32,317 bases of DNA, taken from assembly GCA_025927655.1 (NCBI GenBank), contig JAICKY010000009.1, positions 1 through 32,317 on the forward strand. Direction: 5' to 3'. The notes beneath the pieces were generated by a model. That model had not been told where the DNA came from. It saw nothing but the letters and a program-made list of their open reading frames with translations, and searched no databases. This DNA is from Candidatus Saccharimonadota bacterium. Its GTDB lineage: Bacteria; Patescibacteriota; Saccharimonadia; Saccharimonadales; UBA4665. Of this stretch, positions 21,447 through 31,197 are shown in pieces (within the stretch, counting starts at the first letter, position 1; every line of letters begins with the position of its first letter). The translations under genes and the position numbers were made by a program.

Positions 21447-22031
21447 TTAGCTGTTCGCGCTCTGAAGTACGAGCTTTTTATAATCTGCCGCACACAAGGC
21501 TTCGTATTCGATATTGTCTTGATCTTCGATAGCTATCTGGCTGCCTTCATTCACGAATACACCATTCAATTTACGGCCGTTTAAAACGGCTTTTTTGCCG
21601 CATCGGCACACGGTTCTTAGCTCTTGCAGCTCATGAGCCAGCTCTAGAAGCCGGGTGGAACCGGGAAATCCGTGAGTCTGGAAATCGGTACGCAGACCGT
21701 AGGCAATCACCGGTACATCTGCGTCTACCGCGAACCAAAAGAGTTCTTCGACCTGTTCTGGGGTCAAAAACTGAGCTTCGTCAACCAGCACACAACTAAC
21801 TTTTGGTTGAGCGGACAATAGCACATCTATAGAATCATCGGGGTGGACTAGCACATCCACCTTGCGTTCGATGCCAAGCCGCGAGATGACGGCATCTTCT
21901 CCTTTAGTGTCGACAGCTGGTTTTAGGACCAGTGCCTTCATACCGCGCTCTTCATAGTTATATGCGGTCTGGATAAGCGCTGTTGTTTTGCCGCTGTTCA
22001 TCACGCTATACCGGAAATATAGTTTTGCCAC
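21447..22031 (-). CDS. tdk: Thymidine kinase
   Basis: RYSVMNSGKTTALIQTAYNYEERG, VLVDEAQFLTPEQVEEL, VIAYGLRTDFQTHGFPGS; GTG start with aggagg RBS. Confidence 0.92.
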   Translation of the reverse strand: MAKLYFRYSVMNSGKTTALIQTAYNYEERGMKALVLKPAVDTKGEDAVISRLGIERKVDVLVHPDDSIDVLLSAQPKVSCVLVDEAQFLTPEQVEELFWFAVDADVPVIAYGLRTDFQTHGFPGSTRLLELAHELQELRTVCRCGKKAVLNGRKLNGVFVNEGSQIAIEDQDNIEYEALCAADYKKLVLQSANS

Positions 22032-22874: not shown

Positions 22875-22897
22875 GGTAGAACTAAACTAGTTCTACC
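22875..22897 (-). other. 10-bp perfect hairpin overlapping the rplL stop codon
   Basis: GGTAGAACTA-AAC-TAGTTCTACC. Confidence 0.55.
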
Positions 22898-23259
22898 GTA
22901 GCGCCAGCTTCTTCCAAAGCTTTCTTGGCGCTTTCAGCGGCATCCTTAGCAGCCTTTTCCAGGACTACCTTTGGTGCGCCATCGACGAGAGCCTTAGCTT
23001 CGCCCAGACCCAAGCCAGTCAGGTCCTTAACAGCCTTGATGACAGCAACTTTCTGAGCGCCTGCATCTTTCAGCATAACGTCGTATTCGCTCTTGCCTTC
23101 ATCAGCAGCAGCTTCACCAGCGGCAGCCGGGCCGGCAACAGCAACAGCTGCGGCAGCTGGCTCGATGCCGTATTCATCCTTCAGGATGGTCTTGAGTTCG
23201 TTTACTTCGAGGACAGTCAGCTTCGTAAGCTCTTCTGCCAATTTCTTAATATCAGCCAT
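22882..23259 (-). CDS. rplL: 50S ribosomal protein L7/L12
   Basis: [25 protein letters not shown]...[56 protein letters not shown]. Confidence 0.97.
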
Positions 23260-23285
23260 TTTAAATTCTCCTTTAAGAATGGTTG

Positions 23286-23403
23286 CAACACATTTCTTTG
23301 GCGCATTTCGGGCGTTGGCCTGCGCTCATCGGCTCATGTACCTAAGTACGTTCAAGCCTCGAACTTGTCCAACACTCCAAGCTGCACTCAAACAAATGCG
23401 TTG
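23286..23403. repeat. ~118-bp imperfect palindrome between rplJ and rplL
   Basis: Outer arms caacacatttctttg (23286-23300) and caaacaaatgcgttg (23389-23403) complementary at 13/15; centre gtacctaagtac (23338-23349). Confidence 0.6.
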
Positions 23404-23442
23404 TCGTAGACTAGTTAATTGTTAAGCGGTTGTATCGCCTTC

Positions 23443-23967
23443 TTATGCTGTCGCTTTGGCTTCTACACCGTCGAGCAGCGCGTGCAGATTGCCGGAAAGC
23501 GCGTTGGTAACATCGTGTACAGGTGACAGTAATGTCGCAACAACTTGGGCAATGAGCTCGTTCTTGCTTGGCAGGTCAGCCAATGCCTTGACGTCATCGC
23601 TGCCGATAAATTTGCCTTCGCCGGTCAGGGCGCCTACGAACTCCAGTGTCGGGTTCTTCTTGGCAAAGGTGCTCAAAATCTGAGCAGGCGCGACTTCGTC
23701 GTCGGCGTTAAAGGCATACAGAAGCATGCCTTGCAGGCTGCTGGTATCAGCGTCTTTCAGTGTGTCGTTAGCCTGTACAGCTTTGATAACCAAGCGGTTT
23801 TTAACAACCTTTACCTTGGTACCGTTGCTGCGGGCATCGCGGCGCAATGTCTGCAAAGCTTTTACCGTTGTGCCCTGGTATTTGGCGACAACAGTCATTT
23901 TTGATGACTTTAGCAGGTCCGATACCTCGGTAACTACTGCGTCTTTTTCAGCTTTTTTTAATGCCAT
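23443..23967 (-). CDS. rplJ: 50S ribosomal protein L10
   Basis: MALKKAEKDAVVTEVSDLLKSSKMTVVAKYQGTTVKALQTLRRDARSNGTKVKVVKNRL; located upstream of rplL. Confidence 0.94.
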   Translation of the reverse strand: MALKKAEKDAVVTEVSDLLKSSKMTVVAKYQGTTVKALQTLRRDARSNGTKVKVVKNRLVIKAVQANDTLKDADTSSLQGMLLYAFNADDEVAPAQILSTFAKKNPTLEFVGALTGEGKFIGSDDVKALADLPSKNELIAQVVATLLSPVHDVTNALSGNLHALLDGVEAKATA

Positions 23968-24134
23968 ATGTAATATCCGGGTAATGGAGACAAACCTTGC
24001 GGTTTTTCTCATCGCACGGAGCGTCGGAATAAATCCGCCGACTCCGGCTGCTCTTTTCCCTTACCCCGGGTTGAGCTTTAGTTTATTTCCTCAGGATTCC
24101 ATCGACCTTTTATCCTGAGTGATCTGTTACAAAG

Positions 24135-25357: not shown

Positions 25358-27670
25358 TTATGTTTTGGACGGGGTCGGCTCAGTTGCCTTAGTCGTCTCT
25401 ACGAAAGACATAGCTTCGGCTAGTAACGGATGGACTTCGGTAATTTTGTCGTACATTTGCAGGGCGATCTTGCGGCAATCCTTGTCGCTCTCCGGTGCGG
25501 TATACAACTCCAACATTCGAAACGCTTCGCGTGCGTTTACCGTTACCTGCCAACGTACGTTGTGGCCGTGGAGGACGGCGTACTGAGCCAGCAGCGGGCC
25601 TTTGGCCGCTTGCAGGGCGCTGTACAGTTCCAGGCTTAAGTCAAAGCAGTGCTCGAATGATTCGGCTAGGCCCGCGTCTATCACTAGCTGCGGGACGTCG
25701 TAACCGAGCCGGGGGGTACATTCCTGTGATGATGGGTTGTCCACCATGTGATGGCGCTGTAACTCTTTGAATACCCCATATTTGGCTGTCAGGTCGAAGC
25801 TGTAGTGGATTTTTTCGAGCGGTCTTCCCGGCCGCTGGTATTTGCTGGGCCGGTCGCCCATGTATGCCGCGAAAACATCAAGCTTTTGCTGATATGACCA
25901 CTGGGAAACCTGCTGCAGGAGCGCTTCCAGTGGGAGATCGCTGTGGGGATAGAGCATGTCGGCTACGATATCGAGTTCGTTACGCGGCCAATATGCAGCT
26001 AATCCAACCGGCCCTGTAGCGGCTGTGTAGTTTGTTGGCAAAAGAGTATTCGCCAGATTTTTTACTGTTTCCCGGGTGGTTGTCCGGTATGTAAGGGCGG
26101 CTTTATTCTGGCCCGTTTCGGCGGTACCCTCCAGAAATACCGGAATAATTTTACGGGCTTCGATGAGAAGCGCTGCTCCAGCGGTCCGCAGTTCGGCTAG
26201 TTCGTCATTTTGCAGATGCAGGATAAGGTTTTCGAGCGCCTGTCCCGAAGCAAATATGCCGACCGTAGTTTTAGCTGCTAACGGCAACGCATCTTGCAAA
26301 ATGCTGCGCGCTTGGACGCTGGTGGCGCTTTGCCATGCAGCTCCCCGTCCCGATTTTGCCGCGGATGAATTTTTGCGAATGTATTCGGCCAGTGTGCCGA
26401 CCATACTGGCGTATGTGCCGAATATGTCATTCATGCTGCGGATGTACTGGCTCCGCACCTTGCCTGTAAGCTCGGCCGGTATGTAGAATTTGTAATTCCC
26501 GTTCGTATTTTTTTGGTCGAACTGGACATATGGGGCAGCCTGCTCTGTATATGATGCTAGCCGTCCCAATTCGAGACCCCTGGCCAGTAGCGCGCTGGCC
26601 CCTTCGGCAATAAAATGCCTGCCCGCCAATTGCTGCACAGCATCGTCACTGTAGGCATTGATTGTCTGGCTGAGTAGTTGCTGGTCGGTGGCCATCTTCT
26701 CTATTGAACCATCGAGTAGCATGGTGTGCATGTCGCTGTTGCTATGGCTGAGCCGGGCCATAGCGGCGGCGATAACAACCGGCGGCAAGGTGTTTGTGAA
26801 CCCATATATCGGGCTGTCGGCATTGGTGATGTACGTCGCTAGATCGGGCTTGGTAGTCTCCGCCGTACTTGTAGCTTTGCTTTCTGTCTCTTTGACTTCG
26901 GGATGGATAGCTGCCGGTGTTTCGGGCGCTGGTGCGTCAGCGGTAAGTACGGGCGGTTCTACAGCGGCCGCTTGTACGATTGGCTTGGTTGCCAGCACCT
27001 CGCCAACAGATTGGGGCTTTGACGCAGCGGTATCACCGGTGCGAAGCGCTAAGGTGCTGGTTACGTGCTGCCAGACGTGCTTAAACACGGTCTCGACGTC
27101 TTCATTGGCGTAGACTACGGGCAGGTTACGCTGCTTGGCTTCCCAGAGGTAGCCAGCACGGACTCGTTCCAGAAATGCCTCGTCCAGATTGTCAAAGCGT
27201 TCGGCATTAGAACGTACCCGGACGCGTTCTTTCAGGGTGCTGGCCGGCGCATCCAGGACAAGCATAAGATCTGGCTGCATATCACCAACGGCAAAATTTA
27301 TGATGTCGTTAATGGCGGTGTAGTCCGGCACGTCTCCCCGGCCGTAGTATTGAATGGCCAGCGTAGTAAGGTAGCTGCGGTCTACCAGGCAAATGACGCC
27401 GTTGGCCACCGCAGTACGGATAACCTCGAGTGATTGCGAGCGCGCAGCGTTGTACAGCAGTACCTCAGTGCGGGTACTCATGGGGTAGCGCGGGTCTTGG
27501 GTGAGTCTGCGAATCGCGCGGGCGGTCAGGTCGTTTTGACTGTCTGGCTCTCGCAGGATTTTTACCGGCAGCTGCGCGGCCTGAAGCTGGGCAGCAAGCA
27601 TTTGTACGATGGTGGTTTTGCCGACGCCCTCGGCCCCTTCGATGACGATATATTTACCCAAGACGCTCAT
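25358..27670 (-). CDS. Fusion protein: N-terminal thymidylate kinase plus two tandem ThyX-like domains
   Basis: Tmk: YIVIEGAEGVGKTTIVQML, DRSYLTTLAIQYYG. ThyX-like copy 1: GRHFIAEGASALLARGLELGRLASYTEQAAPYVQF. Copy 2: GVFKELQRHHMVDNPSSQECTPRLGY...WQVTVNAREAFRMLELYTAPESDKDCRKIALQMYDKI. Confidence 0.82.
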   Translation of the reverse strand: MSVLGKYIVIEGAEGVGKTTIVQMLAAQLQAAQLPVKILREPDSQNDLTARAIRRLTQDPRYPMSTRTEVLLYNAARSQSLEVIRTAVANGVICLVDRSYLTTLAIQYYGRGDVPDYTAINDIINFAVGDMQPDLMLVLDAPASTLKERVRVRSNAERFDNLDEAFLERVRAGYLWEAKQRNLPVVYANEDVETVFKHVWQHVTSTLALRTGDTAASKPQSVGEVLATKPIVQAAAVEPPVLTADAPAPETPAAIHPEVKETESKATSTAETTKPDLATYITNADSPIYGFTNTLPPVVIAAAMARLSHSNSDMHTMLLDGSIEKMATDQQLLSQTINAYSDDAVQQLAGRHFIAEGASALLARGLELGRLASYTEQAAPYVQFDQKNTNGNYKFYIPAELTGKVRSQYIRSMNDIFGTYASMVGTLAEYIRKNSSAAKSGRGAAWQSATSVQARSILQDALPLAAKTTVGIFASGQALENLILHLQNDELAELRTAGAALLIEARKIIPVFLEGTAETGQNKAALTYRTTTRETVKNLANTLLPTNYTAATGPVGLAAYWPRNELDIVADMLYPHSDLPLEALLQQVSQWSYQQKLDVFAAYMGDRPSKYQRPGRPLEKIHYSFDLTAKYGVFKELQRHHMVDNPSSQECTPRLGYDVPQLVIDAGLAESFEHCFDLSLELYSALQAAKGPLLAQYAVLHGHNVRWQVTVNAREAFRMLELYTAPESDKDCRKIALQMYDKITEVHPLLAEAMSFVETTKATEPTPSKT

Positions 27671-27825
27671 ACTACCTCACTTTCCCTGCTACGACAGACC
27701 AGATCACGCGTTCCGTAACCTTTTTGCTTGTCGCCATAGCTACTGCTATGCCTTCGCACAAGAAAAGTCGCGGCTCGCACGATCTGCCCCGTTTCACTTA
27801 CGGGAAATGAGCTACTATGAGCGTC
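27662..27825 (-). repeat. 164-nt imperfect palindrome between the dcd-like gene and tmk-thyX; would sequester the tmk-thyX RBS and start codon in mRNA
   Basis: Outer arms 27662-27686 and 27802-27825; middle arms 27700-27710 / 27776-27786; core CATAGC-TACT-GCTATG 27735-27750; all concentric. Confidence 0.8.
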
Positions 27826-28537
27826 ATTCATAGCTCATACCTTCGATTTTGCGCGGCATGCTGCGCTGATCTTTCCAGGCTTGCGGCAGCATCAGGCTTG
27901 GCGACCAGGTTTTGATAAGTGTTTCCAGATCGGTGCCGCTTTGGTATTTGTTGGCGGAGCGGCTGGATAGGTGCTTGCCATAGCTGCCATCGACTTCGCC
28001 GGTCTCATGGAACACTACCTGGGCGATTCGTTCGCCTATAGGTAACAGGACGGTCTCTCGCTCGTTTAAGTTATGGACGGTAAACGTGAGCCTGTTAATG
28101 TAACCGGGGTTAATCCAGCCGGCGTCAAGTGCAACGGCGACGCCATTACGCCCCCAGCTGCTGCGGCTTTTTACTTCACAGGCCCCTGGCGGTTTTATAC
28201 CGAAAAATTCGTGCGTATGCGCCAGGATGTGTTCGCCGGGTTTTAGGGCGATTACGGGGTGGTCATCGGGGATGCCGGCCAGCGGCTTGAATCCATTTAG
28301 GTTGCACCATTCCAGATGTGGCATGGCTTTGTATGGGCCGTCGAAATAGCGTTCCACGTCTTCGCGGTCAAAAGGGTTGTAGATAGTCCGTTCGTTGGCG
28401 AGCTCGATCCGGTAGTAATAATACCCGAGCGTGACATCCAGACTGGCATGGGCCACGTTTTCTGGATCAAACGGATGACAGACGATGTGATCGTCTGCTA
28501 TATACTGCCGGATTTGCGTGTTACTGAGTACGCTCAT
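27824..28537 (-). CDS. dCTP deaminase/dUTPase (Dcd) family protein
   Basis: MSVLSNTQIRQYI, ASLDVTLG, SRSSWGRNGVAVALDAGWINPGYINRLTFTVHN, IGERIAQVVF. Confidence 0.85.
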   Translation of the reverse strand: MSVLSNTQIRQYIADDHIVCHPFDPENVAHASLDVTLGYYYYRIELANERTIYNPFDREDVERYFDGPYKAMPHLEWCNLNGFKPLAGIPDDHPVIALKPGEHILAHTHEFFGIKPPGACEVKSRSSWGRNGVAVALDAGWINPGYINRLTFTVHNLNERETVLLPIGERIAQVVFHETGEVDGSYGKHLSSRSANKYQSGTDLETLIKTWSPSLMLPQAWKDQRSMPRKIEGMSYE

Positions 28538-28658: not shown

Positions 28659-29162
28659 CTACGCGGCTGCGAATTGCTTGCCTACGATGTTGCCTGGTGC
28701 ATCTTTGTTAAAGAGGACCTCGCTATCCTCTAGCAGATATACATGCTGGATACCGGCCGCCAACATAGCGTTCCAACATGGCTCGCAGCACCACCAGTGC
28801 CCCCACATATAAAGTTCGCCTCCTGCAATGTCGGTATTGTGGTCACTAGCATTTTGAATGGTGCGTGCTTCGCAATGGTTTTTAGGGCCACAGCCTTCGC
28901 AGAGGTCATAGTCTTGACCTGTCGGACTGCCGAGGCGAACGCGCTCACAGCCATGTGCCATATGATATGGGCTGAGTCGTACTCCGCGCGCAATAACTTT
29001 TCCGTCTTTAACGATGACACCGCCGATCGGTTGCGCACCGTCGTTAGATTCCTTACAAGCAATTTCTTTGGCCGCCTGCATGAACTCGTTATCCGCGGGC
29101 ACATAGTCAATAGTACCCGCCGCAGGCATATACGGATAGTTGATGTGTTTTTTGCTATTCAC
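28659..29162 (-). CDS. dCMP/cytidine deaminase family zinc enzyme
   Basis: GGVIVKDGKVIARG, HCEARTIQNA (HxE), CEPCWNAMLAAGIQHVY (CxxC); GTG start. Confidence 0.82.
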   Translation of the reverse strand: MNSKKHINYPYMPAAGTIDYVPADNEFMQAAKEIACKESNDGAQPIGGVIVKDGKVIARGVRLSPYHMAHGCERVRLGSPTGQDYDLCEGCGPKNHCEARTIQNASDHNTDIAGGELYMWGHWWCCEPCWNAMLAAGIQHVYLLEDSEVLFNKDAPGNIVGKQFAAA

Positions 29163-29222: not shown

Positions 29223-30059
29223 ATGGCGACGTTTGACGGGATATATCAGAAGCTGCTTACAGATATTATGCAGCACGGCGTGCGCGAAGTTAACCAGCGC
29301 ACTGGGCACGAGACGGCGGGTTTGCCCGGCGTGAGTTTTTCAGTGGATGTCGAGAAGGATGGCTTCCCACTGCTCTCGCTGCGTAAAATTCCCACCAAAA
29401 TCTTTATTGCGGAGCAGATCTGGTTTATTTCCGGCGCCCGTAAACCGGAAGTGTTCTTACGTAACTTTACGAAAATTTGGGATGATTTCACGAACCCCGG
29501 CGATGTCGTAACGGTAGCATACGGCTACCGCTGGCGGCGGCATTTTGGGCGTGACCAGCTGGGTATGCTGGTAGAATTACTGCAAAAGGACCCGTCTTCG
29601 CGGCAGGGGGTGGTAGTTACGTGGGACCCGTCCAGCGATGGCTTAGGCGGGGCCAGCAAGGCCAATGTGCCCTGCCCGTATACCTTTACGGTCAATATTA
29701 TGGGCGGCCGGCTCAACATGATGAATGTCGTGCGTTCCAATGATGTGATTTTAGGCCTGCCGCACGATGTTGCGGGATTTTGCCTGCTACAGCTGGTACT
29801 CGCGCAGAAGTTAGGGGTAAAACCTGGCATCTACACCCACACCATTGCCAATGCTCATGTGTATGATATCCACTATGATGCTGCCAACGAGATGATTGGC
29901 CGCGCTGCCGACGCGCCGAAAGTCACGCTGCAATTGCCGGACGACACCTATGGCCGTGCCGAGGCTAAAGATGTGAGCCTGGTAGACGACATCGACACGC
30001 CGCTGCAAGCGCAGTACAAGCCCGGCGAAGCCATAAAAGGCCTAAGGATCGTACTGTAA
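29223..30059 (+). CDS. Thymidylate synthase (ThyA) superfamily protein; active-site Asn replaced by Asp, possible dCMP methylase/hydroxymethylase-like enzyme
   Basis: RTGHETAGLPG, DGFPLLSLRKI, AEQIWFISG, VPCPYTF (Cys), RSNDVILGLPHDVAGFCLL, IANAHVYDIHYD. Confidence 0.88.
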   Translation: MATFDGIYQKLLTDIMQHGVREVNQRTGHETAGLPGVSFSVDVEKDGFPLLSLRKIPTKIFIAEQIWFISGARKPEVFLRNFTKIWDDFTNPGDVVTVAYGYRWRRHFGRDQLGMLVELLQKDPSSRQGVVVTWDPSSDGLGGASKANVPCPYTFTVNIMGGRLNMMNVVRSNDVILGLPHDVAGFCLLQLVLAQKLGVKPGIYTHTIANAHVYDIHYDAANEMIGRAADAPKVTLQLPDDTYGRAEAKDVSLVDDIDTPLQAQYKPGEAIKGLRIVL

Positions 30060-30553
30060 TGAGAACGTTTATTATTGCCGCGATCTCTGCCGATGGTTTC
30101 ATTGCGCGCAGCAGCGATGAACTGGCAGACTGGACCAGCAAAGAGGACAAGAAACTGTTCGTAGAGCTTACCAAGCGGGCTGGCGTGATGGTTATGGGAA
30201 ATACTACGTTTAAAACTATCGGCCGCGCACTGCCTGATCGCCAAACCATCGTGTATAGCCGCCAAGACTTGCCGTATGACGATGTAGAGGTAACCAGTGA
30301 AGACCCGGTTGATTTAGTTGCACGACTAAATAAAGCCGGGCAAGCAGAGCTGGCTATTTGCGGCGGCAGTACCATATATAGCTTGTTTATGCAGGCTGGT
30401 GTGGTGGACGAACTGTACTTAACCGTAGAGCCGTGTCTGCTCGGCGGCGGTGTACCCCTGTTCGACGCTGCACTTGATGCCAAACTGAAACTGCTGGAAA
30501 CGCGGCAGCTCAATGAAAACGTACTATTATTACATTACGAGGTTCAAAAATAA
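30059..30553 (+). CDS. Dihydrofolate reductase family protein
   Basis: IIAAISADGFIARSS, VMVMGNTTFKTIGRALPDRQTIVYSR, ICGGSTIYSLFM; TAATG overlap with the upstream gene. Confidence 0.85.
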   Translation: MRTFIIAAISADGFIARSSDELADWTSKEDKKLFVELTKRAGVMVMGNTTFKTIGRALPDRQTIVYSRQDLPYDDVEVTSEDPVDLVARLNKAGQAELAICGGSTIYSLFMQAGVVDELYLTVEPCLLGGGVPLFDAALDAKLKLLETRQLNENVLLLHYEVQK

Positions 30554-31197
30554 TGTCAGTACTCACCCGTCAGGAAATTTTAGAACATGTAGCTACCGGG
30601 AAAGTAGCGTTTAATCCGGCGCTGGACGTATTTCAGTTGCAGGCACATTCAGTAGATTTACGGTTAGGGTTCACCTTTTTGGTGCCCAAATCATGGCACA
30701 TGACTAAAAAGGGCCGTGAAGCATTGCACATGGATTATTTTGCCGAAGACCGGCCGGAATATTTTGACATTGTGGAACTAGAACAGGGGCAGTTTTTTGA
30801 TCTGCTCCCCGGCGAGCATATTCTGGTGTCGTCGCTGGAATCTATCAAGATTCCCGAGGATTTGATGGCCGTTATGTACCCGCGCAGCAGCACGAACCGT
30901 AAAGGCATATCGGTAGACCTCACGGGGATTATCGATAGCGGCTACGAAGGCCAGTTAGTTATTCCAGTGCGCAATAACACGCAGTCTCAGACCGTGCGGT
31001 TGTATCCTGGTGAGCGTTTTTGCCAGGTTGTGTTCCAAAAACTAAGCCACAACGTAGACGCGCGTAAAAGCCGCTATCACCAGCGCGATATCATTGATGG
31101 CGTCGATGTCGATAGCTTGGAATCGGAGCGTAACACAGAGATCGAACTGATTCGATCTGGTGATATGAAAAAACTCAAGAACGACCACGCGGCGTAA
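30553..31197 (+). CDS. dCTP deaminase/dUTPase family protein (second paralogue)
   Basis: MSVLTRQEILEHV, HSVDLRLG, YPRSSTNRKGISVDLTGIIDSGYEGQLVIPVRNN, PGERFCQVVF; overlaps the DHFR stop. Confidence 0.86.
   Translation: MSVLTRQEILEHVATGKVAFNPALDVFQLQAHSVDLRLGFTFLVPKSWHMTKKGREALHMDYFAEDRPEYFDIVELEQGQFFDLLPGEHILVSSLESIKIPEDLMAVMYPRSSTNRKGISVDLTGIIDSGYEGQLVIPVRNNTQSQTVRLYPGERFCQVVFQKLSHNVDARKSRYHQRDIIDGVDVDSLESERNTEIELIRSGDMKKLKNDHAA

Follow-up and report, generated by a model that had tools for sequence, protein, structure and literature searches.

How does a thymidylate kinase (Tmk) come to carry two degenerate copies of the thymidylate synthase ThyX, and which of its parts still work? The question is raised by one open reading frame of Candidatus Saccharimonadota bacterium (assembly GCA_025927655.1), in a window that is the whole stretch of DNA analysed here, positions 1-32,317 of contig JAICKY010000009.1. 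The original prediction, made from the letters of this DNA, described a 770-aa product consisting of a normal Tmk, a linker and two ThyX-like units, and offered two readings of the ThyX part: an intramolecular pseudo-dimer with one composite site, or a non-catalytic ThyX-derived scaffold feeding Tmk. The gene, its parts and the thymidylate genes around it are listed in Table 1.

Table 1. Features of the fusion gene and of the neighbouring thymidylate genes (window coordinates; residues of the fusion protein where given)
Feature	Position	Strand	Evidence or remark
Tmk-ThyX-ThyX fusion gene, 770 aa	25358..27670	-	ATG to TAA, internal stops absent; orthologous fusions exist
Tmk domain, residues 1-207, intact	27050..27670	-	TIGR00041 106 bits; Z 23.7 to 4s2e; 74/74 invariant residues
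Low-complexity linker, residues 208-269	26864..27049	-	pLDDT <50 over most of 212-261
ThyX-like copy 1, residues 270-540, degenerate	26051..26863	-	PF02511 46.9 bits; 63/99 invariant residues; canonical-ThyX profile match
Copy 1 active-site motif ELGRLASYTEQAAPYVQF, residues 367-384	26519..26572	-	alignment with relatives
ThyX-like copy 2, residues 541-760, degenerate	25391..26050	-	PF02511 50.6 bits; 53/83 invariant residues
Copy 2 RHR region LQRHHMVDNPSSQECTPRLGY, residues 637-657	25700..25762	-	alignment with relatives
Thymidine kinase (salvage)	21447..22031	-	NF003300 246 bits, cut-off 195
Dcd2, dCTP-deaminase homologue adjoining the fusion	27824..28537	-	Thr in place of the catalytic Glu (E. 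coli E138), Asn in place of D128
PF00383 zinc deaminase, divergent from the ThyA gene	28659..29162	-	42 bits
ThyA-type synthase, 278 aa, D177/P147/V165	29223..30059	+	TIGR03284 119.2 bits; start chosen by homology
Dihydrofolate reductase, overlapping the ThyA stop	30059..30553	+	PF00186 59.4 bits
Dcd1, Dcd/dUTPase-fold protein, Pro at the catalytic Glu position	30553..31197	+	residue comparison

The predicted layout held up, in that the Tmk part and both ThyX-like units exceed the cut-offs of their families and the two motifs quoted in the prediction are present (Table 1). The Tmk part scores 106.1 bits against TIGR00041 (curated cut-off 83.25) over residues 5-197, a domain-wide match, and 93.5 bits against PF02223, and it has the P-loop GAEGVGKTT. 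Matches to PF02511 (Thy1; Pfam cut-off 24.8) lie at 26138-26773 for copy 1 (profile positions 12-191) and at 25427-25834 for copy 2 (profile positions 49-190), and alignment of each copy to canonical ThyX with hhalign gave E values of 1.8e-8 and 1.6e-12, respectively. When the profiles of the two copies were compared directly, the match was weak (E 0.0015, probability 17%); hence, the kinship of the copies rests on the match of each to canonical ThyX. The matches listed by a structure search with the model of the fusion protein are all to Tmk, the Z of 23.7 being to the A. aeolicus enzyme, and the search is uninformative on the ThyX halves. An intact tandem from a relative (JAQBRT010000001.1) was modelled with AlphaFold (mean pLDDT 83), and its C-terminal half, copy 2, superposes on T. 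maritima ThyX (1o26) with Z 16.6 and 2.5 A over 192 residues. The ThyX fold expected of both halves is thus supported structurally for copy 2 of an intact relative, and for copy 1 by its Pfam and profile matches. Alignment indicates that the length of the linker differs between relatives.

The fusion is real and old, and it is conserved across the order Saccharibacteria, as the survey of relatives proposed in the original prediction made plain. Matches were found in 30 of 31 genomes searched, the window's own included, mostly as one stop-free open reading frame of 740-820 aa. When the window protein was used as a single-sequence query against public contigs we obtained zero matches, and a scan of public genomes based on an alignment of relatives identified 153. 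Nearly all of the best 80 of these 153 are named Saccharibacteria, or unclassified bacteria or Patescibacteria, and among the 80 every contig of sufficient length shows the fusion. An even sample of 294 genomes of the order yielded Thy1 in 175, mainly as two stretches within such reading frames. We considered an assembly or frameshift artefact joining separate genes, an idea that a draft genome in 34 contigs invites, and rejected it: the same stop-free architecture recurs in independent genomes, namely nearly all of the 30 relatives and, contig permitting, the best 80 of the 153 public ones. The fusion also lies beside rplJ in the neighbourhoods checked. In the window it is upstream of the rplJ-rplL region (22882-24012), as it is in two relatives (L242 and L244), a shared neighbourhood that counts against misbinning of the contig. 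An artefact is therefore a negligible prospect.

Outside the order, Patescibacteria mostly have the double ThyX alone, as a protein of about 460-620 aa. Unfused doubles were also found on plasmids of Parabacteroides, Euzebya and Miltoncostaea, with 36-38% identity over more than 90% of the intact tandem, and more distant ones on plasmids of Bacillus and Paenibacillus and in one jumbo phage (L188-L190). Most unfused doubles are already annotated as FAD-dependent thymidylate synthase. The double ThyX is thus a known, though unremarked, kind of protein, and the fusion to Tmk is the lineage-specific part. The prediction knew of no characterised protein of this architecture, and our literature search likewise found no paper on a Tmk-ThyX-ThyX fusion or on a double-domain ThyX; a fusion of two consecutive thymidylate enzymes, conserved in a large bacterial lineage, appears undescribed.

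Among the fusions the N-terminal Tmk is of two types, the REPDS type and the DFPQY type, which means that fusion or exchange of the kinase happened more than one time. Many relatives (L018-L020, L022-L026 and others) have the DFPQY type joined to this same double ThyX. As a separate observation, one genome (G009, L031) has, besides an unfused intact double ThyX and a free-standing Tmk, a second fusion that has diverged (about 796 aa).

To read the ThyX halves we mapped site residues by profile alignment and then read them across about 100 sequences; residue numbers are those of T. maritima ThyX. In PBCV-1 ThyX, two different monomers contribute the conserved Arg182 and Ser88 (PMC3498832); we read this Arg182 as equivalent to T. 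maritima R174. In the T. maritima enzyme S88, R90, Y91 and R174 matter (PMC8316439, PMC11940539): the reaction is slowed by changes at S88, R90 and Y91, and dUMP is activated by R174 (PMC8316439). S88, R90, Y91 and R147 are retained in copy 1 of intact relatives, where R78, H79, N163, R165 and R174 have been lost; copy 2 keeps R78-H-R80, N163, R165 and R174 and is variable at its own S88, R90 and Y91. This partition holds in all full-tail fused relatives lacking ThyA and in the unfused cellular doubles checked, and so spans fused and unfused proteins from several phyla. The exceptions are the Bacillus, Paenibacillus and phage doubles, which keep 5-6 of eight core residues (S88, R90 and Y91 in copy 1; R78, R80, N163, R165 and R174 in copy 2). 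The partition mirrors the way in which the subunits of solved ThyX structures share the site residues (PMC3498832), and supports a composite pseudo-dimer in this family, with one complete ThyX site per pair of halves. The halves would then illustrate how a homotetramer with shared sites becomes one chain with divided labour. On this evidence the ancestor would have been a bifunctional Saccharibacteria enzyme with Tmk at its N-terminus and, at its C-terminus, a double-domain ThyX in which the halves paired like two ThyX subunits, copy 1 giving the S88/R90/Y91/R147 side and copy 2 the RHR, N163/R165 and R174 side. One such chain could have carried dUMP to dTMP and on to dTDP, the composite site being suggested by the residue partition.

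The window protein departs from this pattern. The prediction that neither copy has an intact RHRx7S signature was correct, and its cause is double. Even in intact relatives the whole signature is present in neither half; beyond that, the window protein has lost residues retained by almost every ThyA-negative relative. In copy 1 we found S88A (residue 378), R90P (residue 380) and R147Q (residue 459), and R78/H79 are also missing there. In copy 2 we found R80H (residue 641, where the motif reads R-H-H) and R174Y (residue 723, 25502-25504). What is kept comprises R78, H79, N163, R165 and the Y91 of copy 1, and of the eight core residues four remain. The C-terminal RLAAERYTQFKL helix is absent, and the score against the NCBIfam thyX equivalog TIGR02170 is 38.8 bits, below the cut-off of 87.9. 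The window protein retains all 74 family-invariant residues of the Tmk part, 63 of 99 in copy 1 and 53 of 83 in copy 2, against 73-74, 96-97 and 82-83, respectively, in two congeners. Likewise, its terminal branch in the ThyX tree is 1.24 substitutions per site, the longest of 39 (median 0.26), and that in the Tmk tree is the median, 0.166. Since residues were lost on both sides of the composite site, ThyX activity is almost certainly gone from the window protein; its Tmk is inferred to be a working kinase. The pseudo-dimer with one composite site thus stands for the family, where the halves carry complementary residues, and fails for the window protein, which the non-catalytic scaffold reading fits better, with its feeding of Tmk a conjecture.

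A tandem that still forms a working site from non-canonical residues, and hence a bifunctional enzyme running from dUMP to dTDP, would account for the full-length, uninterrupted reading frame, for the five retained site residues, and for structural residues having been kept at 61 of 85 positions and charged ones at 29 of 56. However, S88, R90, R147, R80 and R174 are all replaced, and unfragmented ThyA-negative relatives, apart from two genomes (G211 and G215), keep them. In T. maritima ThyX, S88A and R90A each leave the enzyme strongly impaired (PMC8316439). The ThyX branch is about five times the median while the Tmk branch is at the median, and a ThyA/DHFR pair lies alongside. We consider a working site very unlikely.

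That neighbouring pair points to the fate of ThyX. We compared 71 usable tails across the order, from 50 ThyA-negative and 21 ThyA-positive genomes. The full set of eight core residues occurs in 48 of the 50 ThyA-negative genomes and in 4 of the 21 ThyA-positive ones (Fisher p 8.5e-11, a value that ignores kinship). The degenerate ThyA-positive cases span 13 genera and 6 families, a spread which indicates that loss of ThyX recurred. Order-wide, 23 genomes are listed with both Thy1 and PF00303, compared with about 71 expected under independence, and in 6 of these 23 the PF00303 matches are short and weak. Where ThyA and the fusion share a contig they are usually 1-7 kb apart (one family, f36, is an exception at 25-41 kb), a closeness that points to replacement at the same site; for the window, the distance from the fusion to the start of the ThyA-type gene is 1.55 kb. 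Other ThyA-positive lineages have fusions shrunk to 464-690 aa, the shortest of them cut by contig ends. That four ThyA-positive genomes retain all core residues means that replacement does not destroy ThyX at once. The two ThyA-negative genomes with a degenerate tail are G211 and G215. Together with G164 of the same genus (L091, L093 and L096 for the three), these have a degenerate fusion remnant and a separate Tmk, and ThyA was not found in them.

The degeneracy of the window's ThyX is probably explained by such a local replacement, with the proviso that its genome is 87% complete, so that another synthase could be missing from view. Within that 87% we found no second Tmk or Thy1 protein besides the fusion. 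We put at roughly 0.82 the probability that the gene encodes a formerly bifunctional Tmk-ThyX in which the kinase was kept, ThyX was replaced by the neighbouring ThyA, and the tail was, most likely, retained as a structural part. The kinase is intact and the only dTMP kinase found; the ThyX tail would no longer make dTMP, and the job of ThyX would have been taken over by a ThyA-type synthase and a DHFR inserted beside the fusion, as repeatedly in the order. Across the order ThyX has given way to ThyA many times, and these events are seen at different stages, often at the same chromosomal locus, with the kinase half serving as an internal control.

The tail's role is the softer part of this account. 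If the uninterrupted 500 aa serve the kinase as a folded structural element, selection would have held them open; if they are debris on its way out, they would contribute nothing. We simulated neutral decay to 36% amino-acid change and obtained 8.3 stops on average, with 0 of 300 runs free of stops. Thus, neutral decay predicts stops where the window gene has neither stop nor frameshift, which argues that selection kept the frame open, and the open frame, together with the better keeping of structural than of charged residues, favours a retained structural part. Tails several hundred residues long are also still found in many ThyA-positive lineages whose genomes are compact. For debris speak the loss of about 36% of family-invariant positions, the C-terminal helix that is already gone, the existence of one genome (G043) with a separate Tmk and no Thy1, and the truncated versions in other ThyA-positive lineages, from which it follows that much of the tail is dispensable. 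Debris strikes us as doubtful, about a one-in-three prospect, and retention of the tail as a structural part as the most likely outcome, although not a secure one.

What replaced ThyX is the next question. The window ThyA-type protein exceeds the TIGR03284 cut-off (119.2 against 108.35 bits), and the catalytic Cys146 as well as R166, S167, D169, H207 and Y209 are all present. ThyA converts tetrahydrofolate to dihydrofolate, and ThyX does not; a DHFR gene beside ThyA fits, since ThyA yields dihydrofolate. At three positions, D177, P147 and V165 stand in place of the ordinary N, H and Q, so that the N177 expected for dUMP preference is missing. Positions 177 and 147 best separate cytosine-modifying from ordinary thymidylate synthases, and N177D turns the enzyme into a dCMP methylase (PMC8670742). 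The supply of dUMP also appears altered. The catalytic Glu of Dcd2 was kept in 116 of 116 other copies checked and is Thr in the window, whose Dcd2 is otherwise well conserved (80 of 87 invariant positions) and may have been repurposed rather than be decaying. Dcd1 has Pro at that position, as do 13 of 13 other copies checked, and looks more like a dUTPase than a deaminase. With Glu missing from both homologues, the usual Dcd route to dUMP looks blocked, and in the window both steps towards dTMP by way of dUMP, Dcd2 and ThyX, appear to be gone. The PF00383 deaminase is the only PF00383 gene found in its genome. We found no sequence match for it in the PDB, and phage matches were weak.

Is this gene set particular to the window? 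Among 26 ThyA genes read from the order, D177 occurs in three, those of the window, G043 and G089, and a phylum-wide search added 14 further genomes; D177 ThyA thus occurs in 16 Patescibacteria genomes other than the window's. Leaving aside the window and G089, Thy1 is absent from all 15. Around the 17 D177 loci (window included) we found a PF00383-type deaminase nearby in 11, DHFR in 10 and Dcd1 in 14. Around 80 intact fusions the corresponding counts are ThyA 0, DHFR 1 and deaminase 1, with an adjacent Dcd2 in 75. In the ThyX-less genome G043, a separate Tmk gene follows that of the deaminase. Among phages, the closest relatives of the window's ThyA, including PaMx28, combine D177/P147 with a deaminase and DHFR alongside. 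Phage XP12 makes dTTP by deamination of 5-methyl-dCTP, and dCMP deaminase accepts 5-methyl-dCMP (PMC12088426).

These observations suggest a cytosine-first route, in the window and in the ThyX-less Patescibacteria of this set, in which the D177/P147 ThyA with DHFR would turn dCMP into 5-methyl-dCMP, the PF00383 deaminase would convert this to dTMP, and Tmk would phosphorylate it; with the Dcd2/ThyX dUMP route dead in the window cluster, the kinase would be left with an inactive ThyX tail. We hold this tentatively, at clearly less than even odds. An ordinary dUMP methylase, that is, one dUMP-based synthase swapped for another, would equally pass the TIGR03284 cut-off and adjoin DHFR, and the PF00383 deaminase can also feed it dUMP from dCMP. 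The 15 other D177 genomes lack ThyX, so their D177 enzyme probably makes their dTMP, although a second, ordinary ThyA may be present in those outside the order. Against it are D177, the residue that switches preference from dUMP to dCMP, and P147 at the second discriminating position (PMC8670742), together with the missing Glu of both window Dcd homologues; we rate the ordinary methylase a little short of an even bet. Salvage of thymidine is also open to this organism through its thymidine kinase. In the literature we found a cytosine-first thymidylate route for XP12 infection only. If the cytosine-first reading were true, a cellular organism would make the thymine of its DNA by a route known only from a phage, and we regard this cluster as the lead most worth following.

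Comparison with known systems sets the fusion apart. Tmk enzymes (TIGR00041; A. aeolicus 4s2e) share the full domain and its invariant residues with the window protein, and the 560-residue extension is present only in the fusion. T. maritima ThyX (TM0449, 1o26) is homologous to both halves of that extension; however, it has four identical subunits, whereas the fusion family has two diverged, fused copies between which the site residues are split, and in the window protein the site is destroyed. The unfused double-domain ThyX proteins of Parabacteroides, Euzebya and Miltoncostaea plasmids and of many Patescibacteria have the same two-copy layout and partition, but their sites are intact and they have no kinase domain. 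Protozoan DHFR-TS also fuses consecutive enzymes of the thymidylate pathway, with different partners, in an unrelated lineage and with no ThyX. The same is true of the baculovirus Tmk-Dut fusion (PMC4895240), again with other partners, an unrelated lineage and no ThyX. According to PDB entry titles (3ge9, 3fnn), ThyX of C. glutamicum is not required and thymidylate comes from ThyA, a situation comparable to that in the window, but this ThyX is single-domain, unfused and not degenerate in the way of the window's. The nearest likeness to the neighbouring cluster is the XP12 route through 5-methyl-dCMP and then a 5-methyl-dCTP deaminase: PaMx28, a Pamexvirus and thus of the XP12 genus, and other phages share with the window the D177/P147 synthase, the deaminase and DHFR. 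XP12, however, is a phage and deaminates the triphosphate, whereas the window is cellular and its deaminase is only distantly related to those of the phages.
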